Shown piece after piece: positions 13,724 to 19,385 of a stretch of 64,000 bases of DNA. Under the pieces are notes generated by a model. It made no database searches, was not told the DNA's origin, and worked only from the letters and a program-made list of their open reading frames with translations. Location: contig NZ_FOLN01000010.1 in assembly GCF_900112395.1 (NCBI RefSeq), positions 62,001 through 126,000 on the forward strand. Reading direction: 5' to 3'. A program made the translations under genes and the position numbers. This stretch comes from Algibacter lectus. GTDB lineage: Bacteria > Bacteroidota > Bacteroidia > Flavobacteriales > Flavobacteriaceae. Position 1 is the stretch's first letter; every line of letters starts with the position of its first letter.

Positions 13724-16700
13724 ATGGAAAAATTAGAAAAATCTATAAAGAAAAGATATCTACTATTTGTCTCTTCTATTATAATAATCACTTTAACTGC
13801 CTTGTTTATTGTTCAAAGTAGTATCAGCTCACAGATTTTAGATTCTAAATTAATTAGTGTTGCTGGAAAACAACGTGTTTTGGCTCAGCGTATCTCTAAA
13901 ATTGCGTTTAGTATTGGGTATGACGACAAGCAGGAGGCCAATATAAACTTACTAGACAATTTATCGAATGTTACAAAACAATGGGATAGTTTACAGGCAT
14001 ATCAGCAGGCTATTAATAACAAAAAGGAAAATAGCGAAACTGTAGCTGTTCTTCTAGAAAAAAATAAATCCTATTTAAATAAATTATCAGCTTTTGGTAA
14101 AAATGTTATTGGTCAATCTGATTTTGAATTATTAAAAGCAGAATTAGAAAATATTGCAGAATTCGAGAAGCCTTACTTTGAAAATATTGATACTTTAATT
14201 TCTGAATATCAAAAAGAAGGAGAGAAAAATCTAAAAACTTTAAAAACTGTTATTTATTCTCTTGCTATAGGAACCTTTTTATTGTTACTAGGTGGTTTTT
14301 TAACAGTGATACGCCCAGCATTCAAGAAATTTTTGTTCAATTTAAAAGAAATAAAATCTTCTAACTATGAGTTAGAAGCGTCAAGAGCTGAAATAAAATC
14401 AAACCTTTCCGAGCTTAGAAAGCTTAAAACAGATTTGGAAATTAAAGAAGCCAATAATAAAATATTTATAGAGCAGGCTCCAACAGCTATTGCTATGTTA
14501 GATACTAATATGTGCTATATAGCAGCTTCTAAAAAATGGATTTCAGATTATAAAATGGAACATGAAGAGATTGTTGGTCGCTGCCATTATGATCTTTTTC
14601 CTGAAATTGGAGACGAGTGGAAAGCCAACCATCAAAAATGCTTAAATGGAGCGATAGATGTTTGTGATGAAGCTCCTTTTGTGCGTTTGGATGGCACAGT
14701 GCAATGGATTTATTGGGATGTGCGGCCTTGGTATATTTCCGAAGGTGTTGTTGGAGGCTTAATTATGCATACCGGTGATATTACGCATATTAAACAGAAA
14801 GAGGAAGAAAAAGATAGGATAGAAAAAATATTAGAAAAAACAAATGAAATTGCTCGTATTGGAACTTGGGATGTTGATTTAATAAAAGGCACCATATTTT
14901 GGAGTAAAGTTGTTTTTGAAATACATGAGTTACCTTTAGATTATGAGCCAGATTTAGAAACGGCTATTAATTTTTTTAAGGAGGGAGAAAGTAGAGATGC
15001 CATGCAAGAAGCTGTTAGAAAGGCAATGGAGCATGGTACGTCTTACGATATAGAACTGGAATTAGTAACAGCTAATGGAAAAACGGTTTGGACGCGGGCC
15101 ATTGGTCAGGCTGAATTAGTAAATGGCGAATGTGTTCGTATTTACGGGATTTTTCAAGATATTGATAAGATAAAAAGTTCTGAGCTTGCTTTAAGTAAAG
15201 CGCATACAGAATTGAAAGCCATTTTTAATTCTGGAACAATAGCCATTGTTTCTACTAATGCAGATGGTATTATTAATCATTTTAATCATGGAGCTGAACT
15301 TCTAACAGGATATTCTGCATCTGAAATGATTGGTCTAAAAAGACCAAGCTCGTATCATTTACAAGAAGAACTCGATAGGTTTAGAATAGATATAGCTGAT
15401 CTATATGGAAAAGATTCCGAAGGCTTTAATGCGCAGTTAGAACTCTCCAAAAATAATGCTTATGATACTCGTGAATGGACGTATTTAAGAAAAGACGGAA
15501 CAACGCTGCCGGTACAATTAACCTTAACTTCTATAAAAGATGAAGAAGGTGAGCTTATTGGGTATTTAGGAGTATCAACCGATGTGTCGGAAAAAAGAAT
15601 TGCTCAAAACGAACTTTTAAGAAAAAATCAATTATTAACATTTGCTGAGAAAATTACCAAAATGGGAAATTGGCAGTGGGATGTTGTCAATAATACAGGG
15701 AAGTTATCAGGTGGAATGTATGAGATTTATGAGGTAGACCTTAATGTGGATACTATGGGGTTTGATGATTTTTTTAAGTTTGTTCACCCAGAGGATAAGG
15801 AGAAAGTAGGGCTTCATGCTAAAGCTTCATTAGAAAACAAAGTATTTGAAAACAACTTTGTACACCGTATAATTACTGCTAAAGGAAATGTGAAAATAGT
15901 TCAGTTATTAGGTGAGGTAATTACAAATGAAGTAGGAGACGTTATTGAAATTATTGGAACATGCCAAGATATTACCGTACAGAAAATGGCAGAAAATAAG
16001 TTTAGAGGCTTATTAGAATCTGCTCCAGATGCCATGGTAATAACTAATGAAAAAGGAGAAATTCAACTTATAAATAAACAAGCTGAAAAATTATTTGGCT
16101 ATAACATAGACGAATTGTTAGGGCAATCTGTAGAAATACTAATTCCTCAAAGATTCTCAGGACCTCACCAGGGGCATAGAGAAAACTATTTTGAAAAACC
16201 TCACGTTCGATCTATAGGAGAAGAAAAAGAATTGTATGCCATTAATAAAGAAGGAAAAGAAATTCCAATACAAATAAGTCTTAGCCCTCTTGAAACGGAG
16301 CAAGGTGTATTGGTGTCAGCAGCAATACGAGATATTACAGCCCAAAAATTGGCTAAAAGTGAGTTATTGCGTAAAAACCATTTTTTAAGTTTTGCTGAAA
16401 GAATAGCCAAGATGGGGAATTGGCAATGGAATGTAGTTGCTGATACATTAGAATGGTCGGACAATATGCATGGTATCTACGGAAGTGATAAAAACGAAAC
16501 AGATTTAAATTATTATACGTTTTTTAATTTTGTTCACCCAGAAGACCAAGACTTGGTTACTAAATATATAGATGAGGCTTACAGAGAAAAAAAGTTCCCG
16601 AGTAATTTTATACACCGTATTATTACTACAGATGGTGAATTGAAAACCGTACATTCTTTAGGTAAGGTTATTCTTGATGATCAAGGTGAAATTATCGAAA

Positions 16701-18961
16701 TGATTGGAACCACCCAAGATATTACGGAACATAAAATGGCTGAAGCCGAACTTTTGCGTAAGAATCATTTTCTAAATTTTGCTGAAAGAATAACAAAGAT
16801 GGGGAATTGGCAATGGGATGTTGTTACAGATACCCTAAAGTGGTCGGCTAATTTGTATGGTATTTTTGAGCATGATGTAACGGATGAGAATTTAAATTAT
16901 AATACGTTTTTTAGTTATGTGCATCCCGACGATAAAGCATTTATTACGCGTTTTATAGAAGATGCTTTTTTAGAAAAGAAGTTTCCGGATAATTTTATAC
17001 ACCGCATAGTTACAAGTAGAGGAAAAATAAAAACAGTTCATTTCTTAGGTGAGGTAATTCTTGATGATCAAGGAGAAATTTTTGAAATGATAGGAACTTG
17101 CCAAGATGTTACCGAACAAAAAATGGAGGAAAATAAGTTTAGAGGCTTGTTAGAATCTGCGCCAGATGCTATGGTGATTACTGATGAGGCTTCCAAAATT
17201 CAAATGATTAATAAGCAAGCAGAGAAAATGTTTGGTTATAAAATTGAAGAATTATATAATAAATCTGTCGATTTACTATTGCCTAAACGTTTTTTAACGG
17301 GCTGCGAAGCTAAAGTTGATACGTTATTAGGAGATTTAGTAGGAACTGAATCTTCGGGGGAAGAAGATTTAGCAGCTATGAATAAGGAGGGAAAAGAATT
17401 TCCCGTTCAAATAACTTTAAGTCCATTAGAAACGGAAGATGGTGTTTTAGTTTCTGCGGCAATACGGGATATTACGGCGCAAAAATTAGCTAAGGCAGAG
17501 TTGCTACGTAAAAATCAATTGTTAACTTTTGCTGAGAAAATTACCATGATGGGTAATTGGCAGTGGGACCTTATCACAAATGAGGTAAAATGGTCTGCTA
17601 ATCTTTATAAAATTTTTGGATTGGATAAAGATACTGAGTTGGCTTATGATACCTATTTTAGTTCTGTTTATGAGGATGATAAAGAACTTGTTTCAAAGCA
17701 TGTAGAGCAGGCTATTGCTGATAAAGACTTTTTAGATTTAACACATCGTATTTCGTTGCCAGATGGTTCTTTAAAAACAATTCAACTCTTAGCAGAGGTG
17801 GCTACAGATGCTAATGGTGAAGTTATTGAAATGACAGGAACTTGCCAAGATGTAACAGCCCAGAAAATGGCTGAGAATAAGTTTAGAGGCTTACTAGAGT
17901 CTGCGCCAGATGCTATGGTAATTACTAATGAAGACTCCTTAATTCAAATTATAAACAAGCAGGCAGAATTACTTTTTGGATATAAAATAGACGAAATTTA
18001 TAATAAACCTATAGATTTACTCTTGCCAATTCGATCTTTAGAAGATCATGAGTTTCAGAGAAAATCGTTTCTTAATAAACCGAAAACAACCGAACTGTCT
18101 GAAGGTAGAGATATGTTCGCTATTAATAAAAATGGAAGGGAATTCCCTATACAAATGAGCTTAAGCCCCTTGAAAACAGAAGAAGGGATGTTAATATCTG
18201 CTGTAATAAGGGATGTTACGGATCAAAAGTCGGCTCAAAATAAAATAATTAAAGCTAAAAATGATTTAGAGATTCTAGCTCAAAAATTAATTAAAAATAA
18301 TAATCAATTAGCCGATTTTGCACACATTACATCGCATAATTTAAGAGCTCCAGTAAGTAATCTTAATTCGCTTCTAGGTCTGTATAACGCTTCAGTTAGT
18401 GAAGATGATAAAGCATTTTTGTTCGAGAAATTTGAAAAAGTAATAAATCACCTTACGGTGACATTAAATACTTTAGTAGATGCTGTTAAAATTAAAAACA
18501 ACACACCTAAAGAATTTGAAAAACTTAAATTTAATGATGTTTTAAATAAAACAAAAGAAATTTTAACAGGGCAAATCATGAAGAATGAGGCTATTATTAC
18601 TAGCGATTTCTCCGAAATATCAAAAATAAAATACGATAGAATTTATTTAGAAAGTATTTTTCTTAACTTAGTAGGGAATTCTATTAAGTATCGCTCTAAA
18701 AATCGTGTTCCAGAAATATTTATTAAATCTGAGATTATCGATGGAAAAGTTAGATTGTTCTTTCAAGATAATGGCTTAGGAATTGATTTAGAAAAGCACG
18801 GTCATAAATTATTTGGCCTTAACAAAGTATTTCATAGGCATCCAGAAGCAAAGGGTGTTGGTTTATTTATGGTTAAAACACAAGTAGAAGCATTGAATGG
18901 TACAATATATGCAACAAGTAAAGTAAACGAGGGTACTACGTTTTATATTAATTTTAATTAA
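13724..18961 (+). CDS. Giant multi-PAS membrane sensor histidine kinase
   Basis: The 1745-residue protein starts with a transmembrane helix (about 12-32), a periplasmic helical domain with the PilJ/NIT-like motif AGKQRVLAQRISK (about 41-54), a second helix (about 173-196) and a cytoplasmic coiled coil (to about 245). About ten PAS modules follow: three divergent ones (about 246-355, 365-485, 490-620), then seven in the order A-B-A-A-B-A-B, where A begins ELLRKN..L.FAE.I..MGNWQW (about 630, 880, 1008, 1258) and B begins ENKFRGLLESAPDAMVIT (about 757, 1136, 1383). The kinase core has SHNLRAP with the likely phospho-acceptor H1538, then the ATPase boxes LVGNSIKYRS, DNGLGID and GVGLFMVK. Its partner is probably the response regulator 7 bases downstream. 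The ligand is unknown. Confidence 0.93.
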   Translation: MEKLEKSIKKRYLLFVSSIIIITLTALFIVQSSISSQILDSKLISVAGKQRVLAQRISKIAFSIGYDDKQEANINLLDNLSNVTKQWDSLQAYQQAINNKKENSETVAVLLEKNKSYLNKLSAFGKNVIGQSDFELLKAELENIAEFEKPYFENIDTLISEYQKEGEKNLKTLKTVIYSLAIGTFLLLLGGFLTVIRPAFKKFLFNLKEIKSSNYELEASRAEIKSNLSELRKLKTDLEIKEANNKIFIEQAPTAIAMLDTNMCYIAASKKWISDYKMEHEEIVGRCHYDLFPEIGDEWKANHQKCLNGAIDVCDEAPFVRLDGTVQWIYWDVRPWYISEGVVGGLIMHTGDITHIKQKEEEKDRIEKILEKTNEIARIGTWDVDLIKGTIFWSKVVFEIHELPLDYEPDLETAINFFKEGESRDAMQEAVRKAMEHGTSYDIELELVTANGKTVWTRAIGQAELVNGECVRIYGIFQDIDKIKSSELALSKAHTELKAIFNSGTIAIVSTNADGIINHFNHGAELLTGYSASEMIGLKRPSSYHLQEELDRFRIDIADLYGKDSEGFNAQLELSKNNAYDTREWTYLRKDGTTLPVQLTLTSIKDEEGELIGYLGVSTDVSEKRIAQNELLRKNQLLTFAEKITKMGNWQWDVVNNTGKLSGGMYEIYEVDLNVDTMGFDDFFKFVHPEDKEKVGLHAKASLENKVFENNFVHRIITAKGNVKIVQLLGEVITNEVGDVIEIIGTCQDITVQKMAENKFRGLLESAPDAMVITNEKGEIQLINKQAEKLFGYNIDELLGQSVEILIPQRFSGPHQGHRENYFEKPHVRSIGEEKELYAINKEGKEIPIQISLSPLETEQGVLVSAAIRDITAQKLAKSELLRKNHFLSFAERIAKMGNWQWNVVADTLEWSDNMHGIYGSDKNETDLNYYTFFNFVHPEDQDLVTKYIDEAYREKKFPSNFIHRIITTDGELKTVHSLGKVILDDQGEIIEMIGTTQDITEHKMAEAELLRKNHFLNFAERITKMGNWQWDVVTDTLKWSANLYGIFEHDVTDENLNYNTFFSYVHPDDKAFITRFIEDAFLEKKFPDNFIHRIVTSRGKIKTVHFLGEVILDDQGEIFEMIGTCQDVTEQKMEENKFRGLLESAPDAMVITDEASKIQMINKQAEKMFGYKIEELYNKSVDLLLPKRFLTGCEAKVDTLLGDLVGTESSGEEDLAAMNKEGKEFPVQITLSPLETEDGVLVSAAIRDITAQKLAKAELLRKNQLLTFAEKITMMGNWQWDLITNEVKWSANLYKIFGLDKDTELAYDTYFSSVYEDDKELVSKHVEQAIADKDFLDLTHRISLPDGSLKTIQLLAEVATDANGEVIEMTGTCQDVTAQKMAENKFRGLLESAPDAMVITNEDSLIQIINKQAELLFGYKIDEIYNKPIDLLLPIRSLEDHEFQRKSFLNKPKTTELSEGRDMFAINKNGREFPIQMSLSPLKTEEGMLISAVIRDVTDQKSAQNKIIKAKNDLEILAQKLIKNNNQLADFAHITSHNLRAPVSNLNSLLGLYNASVSEDDKAFLFEKFEKVINHLTVTLNTLVDAVKIKNNTPKEFEKLKFNDVLNKTKEILTGQIMKNEAIITSDFSEISKIKYDRIYLESIFLNLVGNSIKYRSKNRVPEIFIKSEIIDGKVRLFFQDNGLGIDLEKHGHKLFGLNKVFHRHPEAKGVGLFMVKTQVEALNGTIYATSKVNEGTTFYINFN

Positions 18962-18968
18962 TTGAGTT

Positions 18969-19385
18969 ATGATGAATACACCTGTTAATATTTGCATAGT
19001 TGATGATGATGATATTTATCAATTTACTGTAGTGAAAACACTGGAGTTATTGGAGTTTGAAAAAAATATAAAAGTTTTTTCTGATGGAGAAGAAGCCTTA
19101 GAGTTTCTGTTAAGCAATCTAAACCAAAATGATGAGCTTCCAGATGTTATTTTTCTAGATATTAATATGCCTATTATGGATGGCTATCAATTTATGGAAG
19201 AGTATGTTAAAATTAAATCTAAGCTTGGTAAGAAAACAGTAATATATATGGTGTCTTCATCTGTAGATCCTGTAGATATTGAAAAGGCTAAAAGAATTAG
19301 TGATATATCAGATTATATTATAAAACCTATTGAGCCAGGGAAGCTTAAAAGCATAATGGAACAATTAATAAAAGAAAGTAATTAG
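18969..19385 (+). CDS. Single-domain response regulator (CheY/Rcp1-like)
   Basis: The 138-residue protein is a receiver domain alone: the acidic pocket VDDDD (12-15), phospho-acceptor D64 in FLDINMPIMDG, the switch Ser cluster around 96-98 and conserved K119 in IIKP. It has no output domain, so it would act by binding a partner or relaying phosphate. It starts 7 bases after the multi-PAS kinase, so it is almost certainly that kinase's cognate regulator. A second ATG directly follows the first, so the N-terminus is uncertain by one residue. Confidence 0.93.
   Translation: MMNTPVNICIVDDDDIYQFTVVKTLELLEFEKNIKVFSDGEEALEFLLSNLNQNDELPDVIFLDINMPIMDGYQFMEEYVKIKSKLGKKTVIYMVSSSVDPVDIEKAKRISDISDYIIKPIEPGKLKSIMEQLIKESN

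Follow-up and report, generated by a model that had tools for sequence, protein, structure and literature searches.

The window, the whole 64,000-nucleotide stretch of Algibacter lectus DNA that was analyzed, carries at positions 13724 to 18961 of the forward strand a single open frame encoding a protein of 1,745 amino acids. A Pfam scan together with module profiles places ten PAS modules upstream of a HATPase_c domain, and matches to PF13426, PF08447, PF00989, PF08448, and PF02518 exceed the Pfam cutoffs, as expected of a PAS-containing sensor histidine kinase. Eight genes occupy this locus, between rdgB and a group made up of a response regulator gene, hpf, rlmH, and nadC. Five of them are in genomes of the same genus (the window, G001, G002, A. 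miyuki [G003, also L062], and A. pacificus [G004, also L061]), which make up our genus comparison, and three are in other genera (G053, Confluentibacter sediminis, and Seonamhaeicola algicola).

The N-terminal part (13724 to 14446) contains two putative transmembrane segments, placed by eye at approximately residues 10 to 33 and 174 to 198, flanking a PilJ-like domain (PF13675). The PF13675 match is borderline, with a score of 26.8 bits for the N-terminal part alone and 24.4 bits for the full protein, against a cutoff of 26.6, and of 23.9 bits for G001 and 24.7 bits for G002; three of the six syntenic N termini scanned (G003, G004, and G053) were unmatched. The gene product is probably a membrane-anchored histidine kinase. 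The N-terminal part is changing fast at the protein level, with dN/dS values of 0.39 to 0.58 versus G001, A. pacificus, and A. miyuki (0.15 versus G002), while the values for the first PAS module and the kinase part against those same three genomes are 0.06 to 0.14.

The PAS array, all on the forward strand, begins with module P4 (PAS_4 type; 14447 to 14800), P3 (14801 to 15187), and S (15188 to 15601), each assigned by profile. These are followed by seven modules of two classes, assigned by profile and by module tree: A1 (15602 to 15988), B1 (15989 to 16351), A2 (16352 to 16738), A3 (16739 to 17125), B2 (17126 to 17488), A4 (17489 to 17869), and B3 (17870 to 18232). The kinase part (18233 to 18961) comprises a linker helix, the motif SHNLRAPV, and HATPase_c (PF02518, 3.5e-14). 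The Pfam scan of the protein reported no match to the HisKA model in this part, but SHNLRAPV is identical throughout the eight aligned kinase sequences, and we take it to be the phosphoacceptor region and its histidine to be the phosphoacceptor. The likely partner of the kinase, a single-domain response regulator (18969 to 19385, forward strand; PF00072, 9.5e-18), begins 7 bases past the kinase gene and consists of 138 amino acids with a receiver domain only. A homologue of it with at least 45% identity is present in 69 of 79 named loci, a count of presence and not of adjacency to the kinase.

The initial annotation had described an A-B-A-A-B-A-B run of seven near-identical modules, grown by duplication. 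Profiles and alignment confirm the run of seven among the ten PAS modules, and the class starts are within a few residues of the positions first given (A at residues 627, 877, 1006, and 1256; B at 756, 1135, and 1383). The copies, in contrast, are far from near-identical. Pairs of A modules share 49 to 66% and pairs of B modules 58 to 65% of their amino acids, with codon-aligned DNA identity of 61 to 75% between same-class copies. Ungapped direct repeats of 300 nucleotides are present at 70 to 74% identity, exact repeats reach 21 nucleotides at most, and dS is at least 0.93 in all nine within-class pairs. Same-class likeness is nevertheless well above the 17 to 31% amino acid identity obtained when modules from different classes of this protein are compared. 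It is extremely improbable that the array is an artefact of assembly. The genome is a draft (4.8 Mb in 32 contigs), but the frame is fully open, related arrays are found in the single-contig genomes G001 and G002, and repeat collapse or overcounting is unlikely because the copies have diverged and the longest exact repeat is so short.

In order to place these modules among their relatives, we compared 431 modules from 86 homologous genes. The module profiles started from the modules of the window and were then refined on the loci analyzed here, so that remote PAS domains elsewhere may escape them; modules of 100 residues or fewer were dropped from the pair and nearest-relative analyses, and seven G rows duplicating named loci were removed before these analyses and the kinase tree. 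Each of the seven A and B modules of the window is nearest to a module of another species (79 to 98% amino acid identity), while its best copy in its own gene is 50 to 66% identical. Since each is closer to a module of another species than to the copies beside it, the A and B modules are old, distinct subtypes. Across the 86 genes, another module of the same gene is the nearest relative for only 17 of the 157 modules from multicopy genes. DNA identity between same-type modules of one gene (233 pairs) has a median of 54% and reaches 87% at most.

These values bear directly on the explanation first offered, which is that an A-B block and one A module have recently been, and are still being, duplicated in tandem within the gene. 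The two repeating classes are consistent with it, as are fairly similar in-gene pairs in relatives, such as a P4 pair in G001 (85% DNA identity) and a B pair in Lacinutrix himadriensis (87%). A2 and A3 do fall in one clade (support, 100/99), as duplication of a single A would predict; however, that clade also includes modules from other species, so this duplication is an old one. Recent copying of an A-B block is not supported, given nearest relatives that lie elsewhere and A-B neighbors that are not kept together. Copies within the gene are less alike than orthologues, one of two observations that the initial annotation had named as counting against expansion; the other, a conserved module order, was not found. 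Recent tandem duplication is dismissed by the dS and nearest-neighbor analyses, and with none of the 233 intragenic pairs above 87% identity, we consider continuing duplication very unlikely.

The array varies in number and order between sister species. A comparison of PAS number in sister species gives 10 modules in the window, 12 in G001, and 9 each in G002, A. miyuki, and A. pacificus. At the same locus, there are 5 in G053, 5 in C. sediminis, and 4 in S. algicola, so that the array is larger than in these three genomes of other genera. The suggestion of an unusual length requirement is not supported, given that orthologous kinases at this locus carry 4 to 12 PAS modules. In the wider family, the number ranges from 3 to 13 over 82 genes (L069, L077, L105, and L133, which are cut by a contig end, on a short contig, or split, were excluded), and the kinase tree requires at least 28 changes in number and at least 33 in architecture. 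These counts are rough because they were made on a quick tree with 32 of 83 inner branches of low support drawn open. Among the individual genes, a 1,900-amino-acid kinase of an uncultured Flavobacteriaceae bacterium (L117, 4054 to 9756) has one P3 and a run of twelve consecutive A modules, and seven A modules are found in each of the Maribacter gene L137 and the cut gene L133. The homologous kinase of Cochleicola gelatinilyticus (L043, 2145 to 5733; the same as L105) is broken by stops into frames of 791 and 375 amino acids. G002 has a smaller second paralogue of the same family (L049, 2150 to 5113; 987 amino acids) with the architecture P4-P3-A-B.

Module trees, built from 12 of the 86 genes, picked around the window, resolve the A modules into subtypes alpha (A1), beta (A2), gamma (A3), and delta (A4); two further subtypes, eps and zeta, are found in relatives and are lacking in the window. 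Support is 100/99 for alpha, 99/97 for beta, 100/99 for B2, 98/88 for the window-A. miyuki gamma pair, and 100/98 for the window-G002 delta and B3 pairs; it is weaker for the B1 group (87/82), the whole delta group (83/77), and the whole B3 group (90/83). With these subtypes, the order after S is alpha-B1-beta-gamma-B2-delta-B3 in the window, alpha-beta-eps-B2-delta-B3 in G002, alpha-gamma-B1-eps-B2-x in A. miyuki, A-zeta-gamma-B1-delta-B3 in A. pacificus, and A-B1-A-S-zeta-beta-B2 in G001. In class letters alone, G002 and A. pacificus are identical (P4-P3-S-A-A-A-B-A-B); they differ in the subtypes of their A and B modules. In Winogradskyella costae, a homologous gene at a different chromosomal place has the order A-S-zeta-gamma-B1-delta-B; this gene (L070, 4441 to 9735) shares with A. 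pacificus a zeta-gamma-B1-delta block whose modules are 67 to 80% identical.

The orders conflict. B1 lies before gamma in the window but after it in A. miyuki; the window B1 is 82% identical to the A. miyuki B1 versus 65% identical to the other B module of the A. miyuki gene. The gamma type precedes B2 in the window and B1 in A. miyuki. The A. pacificus and W. costae arrays also have B1 after gamma, provided that the module in question is gamma, an assignment based on identity (73% to the window A3 versus 60 to 64% to A2) at a fork that is open in the tree. No single A-B block is traceable through these arrays. The architecture in Zobellia is P4-P3-S-A-S-A-S-A-B for two genes (L088 and L091) and P4-P3-S-A-S-A-B for a third (L097). 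The tree pairs the first A of L097 with the second A of L088/L091 (100/99) and the second A of L097 with the first A of L088/L091 (85/85, within a 98/96 clade). The colinear alternative, in which the second A of L097 is kept with the last A of L088/L091, is rejected (AU test, P = 0.00015; the grouping was picked after the module identities were known). As judged from these groupings, Zobellia is a second, independent case of reordering.

One way to account for such variation without exchange between lineages is a single large ancestral array, inherited vertically, from which each species has lost different modules. Orthologous modules are common to the five genes of the genus, and recombination between repeats makes loss easy. 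Loss alone, though, has to contend with the B1/gamma order conflict between the window and A. miyuki, with the rejected colinear order in Zobellia, and with the 4 or 5 modules at the locus in the three genomes of other genera. Together with the uneven divergence described below, this leads us to regard a purely vertical array as unlikely.

Comparison of the window gene with that of G002 suggests that its parts do not share one history. As a measure of synonymous divergence, we counted identical-residue codons with a synonymous difference. In the flanking genes, these are 175 of 1,135. The array has more: 42/77 in S (Fisher P = 4.5e-14 versus the flanks), 28/77 in P3 (P = 2.1e-5), 31/78 in A1 (P = 9e-7), and from 24/82 to 38/117 in A2, B2, A4, and B3 (P = 0.003 to 1e-5). 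In contrast, the kinase part has 9/239 (P = 1.1e-7), while P4 is like the flanks (P = 0.15) and the N-terminal part differs weakly (P = 0.017); the P values of the ten tests carry no correction for multiple testing and assume independent codons. Thus, within one gene, the synonymous difference spans more than tenfold, from 0.04 in the kinase part to 0.55 in S, which also weighs against vertical inheritance of the whole array. At the low end is a tract of 619 bases (18276 to 18894, forward strand) in which the window and G002 differ by one mismatch, at 18355. The MaxChi statistic (75.0), with its main break at 18278, was reached in none of 5,000 permutations, and a second break at 14681 was reached in 2 of 5,000; the MaxChi signal reflects uneven synonymous divergence, for which rate variation could be partly responsible.

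Four-taxon site patterns also shift along the gene. The ratio of sites shared by the window and G002 to sites shared by the window and A. miyuki is 66:19 in the N-terminal part and 13:5 in P4, changes to 5:16 in P3 and 6:19 in S, and returns to 53:1 in the kinase part. For trees of the kinase and P3-S regions, we used 15 of the 86 genes, picked around the window. The kinase tree joins the window with G002 (88/78) and rejects the window with A. miyuki (AU P = 0.009). The P3-S tree joins the window with A. miyuki (99/96); in the protein tree of this region, a forced window-G002 grouping is not rejected (AU P = 0.26), so that the conflict over P3-S rests on the site patterns, synonymous counts, and branch support. 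Taken together, these sequence comparisons strongly indicate that different segments of the window gene have different histories. They also suggest that a foreign P3-S-A1 stretch was taken up by G002 and not by the window, since window-A. miyuki dS values in P3-S-A1 (0.66 to 0.86) do not exceed those in the rest of the gene.

Relaxed or diversifying selection, acting without recombination, could also have driven the window and G002 apart quickly, and dN between the two is in fact raised in P3, S, and A1 (0.24 to 0.31). This reading appears most improbable, because synonymous sites differ as well (P ≤ 2.1e-5 versus the flanks for P3, S, and A1), sites shared with A. miyuki exceed those shared with G002 in P3 and S, and dN/dS in orthologous window-G002 array segments is 0.01 to 0.28. 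Based on these ratios and on the module trees, the PAS modules are distinct subtypes, common to several species and under purifying selection.

At the protein level, module ends are more conserved than module cores. Among in-gene copies, pS at the A-B joint is 0.39 in A columns 101 to 117, 0.49 in A columns 118 to 129, and 0.47 in B columns 1 to 20; it is 0.51 in B columns 41 to 60 and 0.61 to 0.86 in the remaining blocks. Recent in-gene gene conversion of the linkers could produce such a dip, but constraint on the joint codons is as good a reading, because a dip of similar size near the joint is present in orthologue pairs as well (0.54 in A columns 106 to 120 and 0.49 in B columns 1 to 15). 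When the window's own genome was searched for a donor paralogue, the four other matches listed (4 of 53 candidates scored) were 32 to 36% identical, and with the kinase part as the query, none of the 61 candidates, all of them scored, passed an E value of 1e-60 beyond this gene.

FixL is a rhizobial oxygen sensor, and the A-B didomain matches its PAS-A/PAS-B pair over nearly the full length (profile, 8js5, E = 5.9e-29). A joint model of A3 and B2 (mean pLDDT, 82; pTM, 0.61; 71 sequences) has the FixL PAS structures 8js5/8js6 as its top seven fold matches, with TM-scores of 0.41 to 0.46 (Foldseek, 1.0e-18, TM 0.46, and root mean square deviation 7.1 across both domains). These TM-scores indicate that the domain arrangement is not the same as that of FixL in detail. 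By profile and predicted fold, including the linker, the A-B unit follows the PAS-A/PAS-B plan of FixL, and A-B is the last pair ahead of the kinase in 58 of 82 genes, as in FixL. Unlike FixL, this protein has several A-B units, and its neighbor is a single-domain receiver and not a regulator of the type of FixJ, the partner of FixL, which has a DNA-binding domain. The NCBIfam FixL equivalog model scores 384.4 bits, below its cutoff of 850.

This likeness raises the possibility that the kinase uses its B modules, several times over, as heme PAS domains of the FixL kind for gas or redox sensing, a functional proposal that is compatible with recombination between modules. The sequence and fold matches also include two heme PAS proteins, 10jx and DosP, and the position of FixL H200 is occupied by histidine in B1 and B3, which could bind heme. 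B2 has cysteine there and probably does not bind heme in the FixL way. Histidine at this position may, moreover, be common in heme-free PAS domains. Only 41 of the 72 B modules of the family have it, and the heme ligand is therefore not universal; the position of R220 is not kept (K, E, and R in B1, B2, and B3), and the position of I215 is mostly polar. We rejected heme sensing as a family-wide property because the histidine is not conserved, and we hold the heme proposal for these modules to be rather unlikely. The initial annotation had also raised the possibility of several equivalent ligand sites. The B pocket region (alignment columns 61 to 75; pLDDT below 50 at model residues 191 to 210) does not support this: it is the region in which the copies are least alike, with 15% identity among paralogues versus 56% among orthologues, although the two sets are comparable in synonymous divergence (pS, 0.71 and 0.61).

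Based on the module subtypes, the conflicting orders, and the uneven divergence, we consider it likely that diverged PAS modules have been gained, lost, and reordered by homologous recombination and that they supply different inputs to one kinase. Recombination with DNA of relatives, out of register between modules, would add, remove, or reorder modules, and crossovers would probably be easiest to place in the better-conserved linker helices and the DIT/DVT ends common to the modules. Because module ends are shared, a swapped module would stay in frame, and its signal could still reach the kinase by way of the helical stalk. The protein would act as a parallel dimer in which helical linkers relay signals to the kinase and from there to the neighboring receiver, with each module a different input and not a repeated copy of one ligand site.

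Recombination of diverged homologous modules at conserved joints is familiar from the NRPS/PKS megasynthases, in which such modules are swapped. The present case differs in that it is a signaling protein with one output domain and no assembly-line chemistry. Histidine kinases with many PAS modules are themselves known, with up to 19 PAS domains reported in a cyanobacterial kinase (PMC10468136), and the module count here is ordinary. What is unusual is the between-species mosaic in PAS number and order; the matches listed from the open-licence PMC literature (including PMC10468136 and PMC554113), to the extent of the text they gave, contain no description of PAS modules reordered in one kinase between sister species.

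How a single kinase reads a long series of PAS modules is hard to test, since arrays usually differ along with the kinase. In the window and G002, the kinase tract has one mismatch in 619 bases while the arrays differ, and sister species carry 9, 10, and 12 modules. These genes are a natural sensor-swap set for asking which modules count, whether their order counts, and what makes PAS modules interchangeable, the last of which matters for the design of engineered sensors too. That flavobacterial multi-PAS kinases are natural plug-and-play sensors, in which recombination rearranges diverged modules and moves them between species by virtue of their interchangeable linker ends, is a proposal for which we put the chances at about even. 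If it is true, close relatives with nearly the same kinase and regulator would read different sets of signals.
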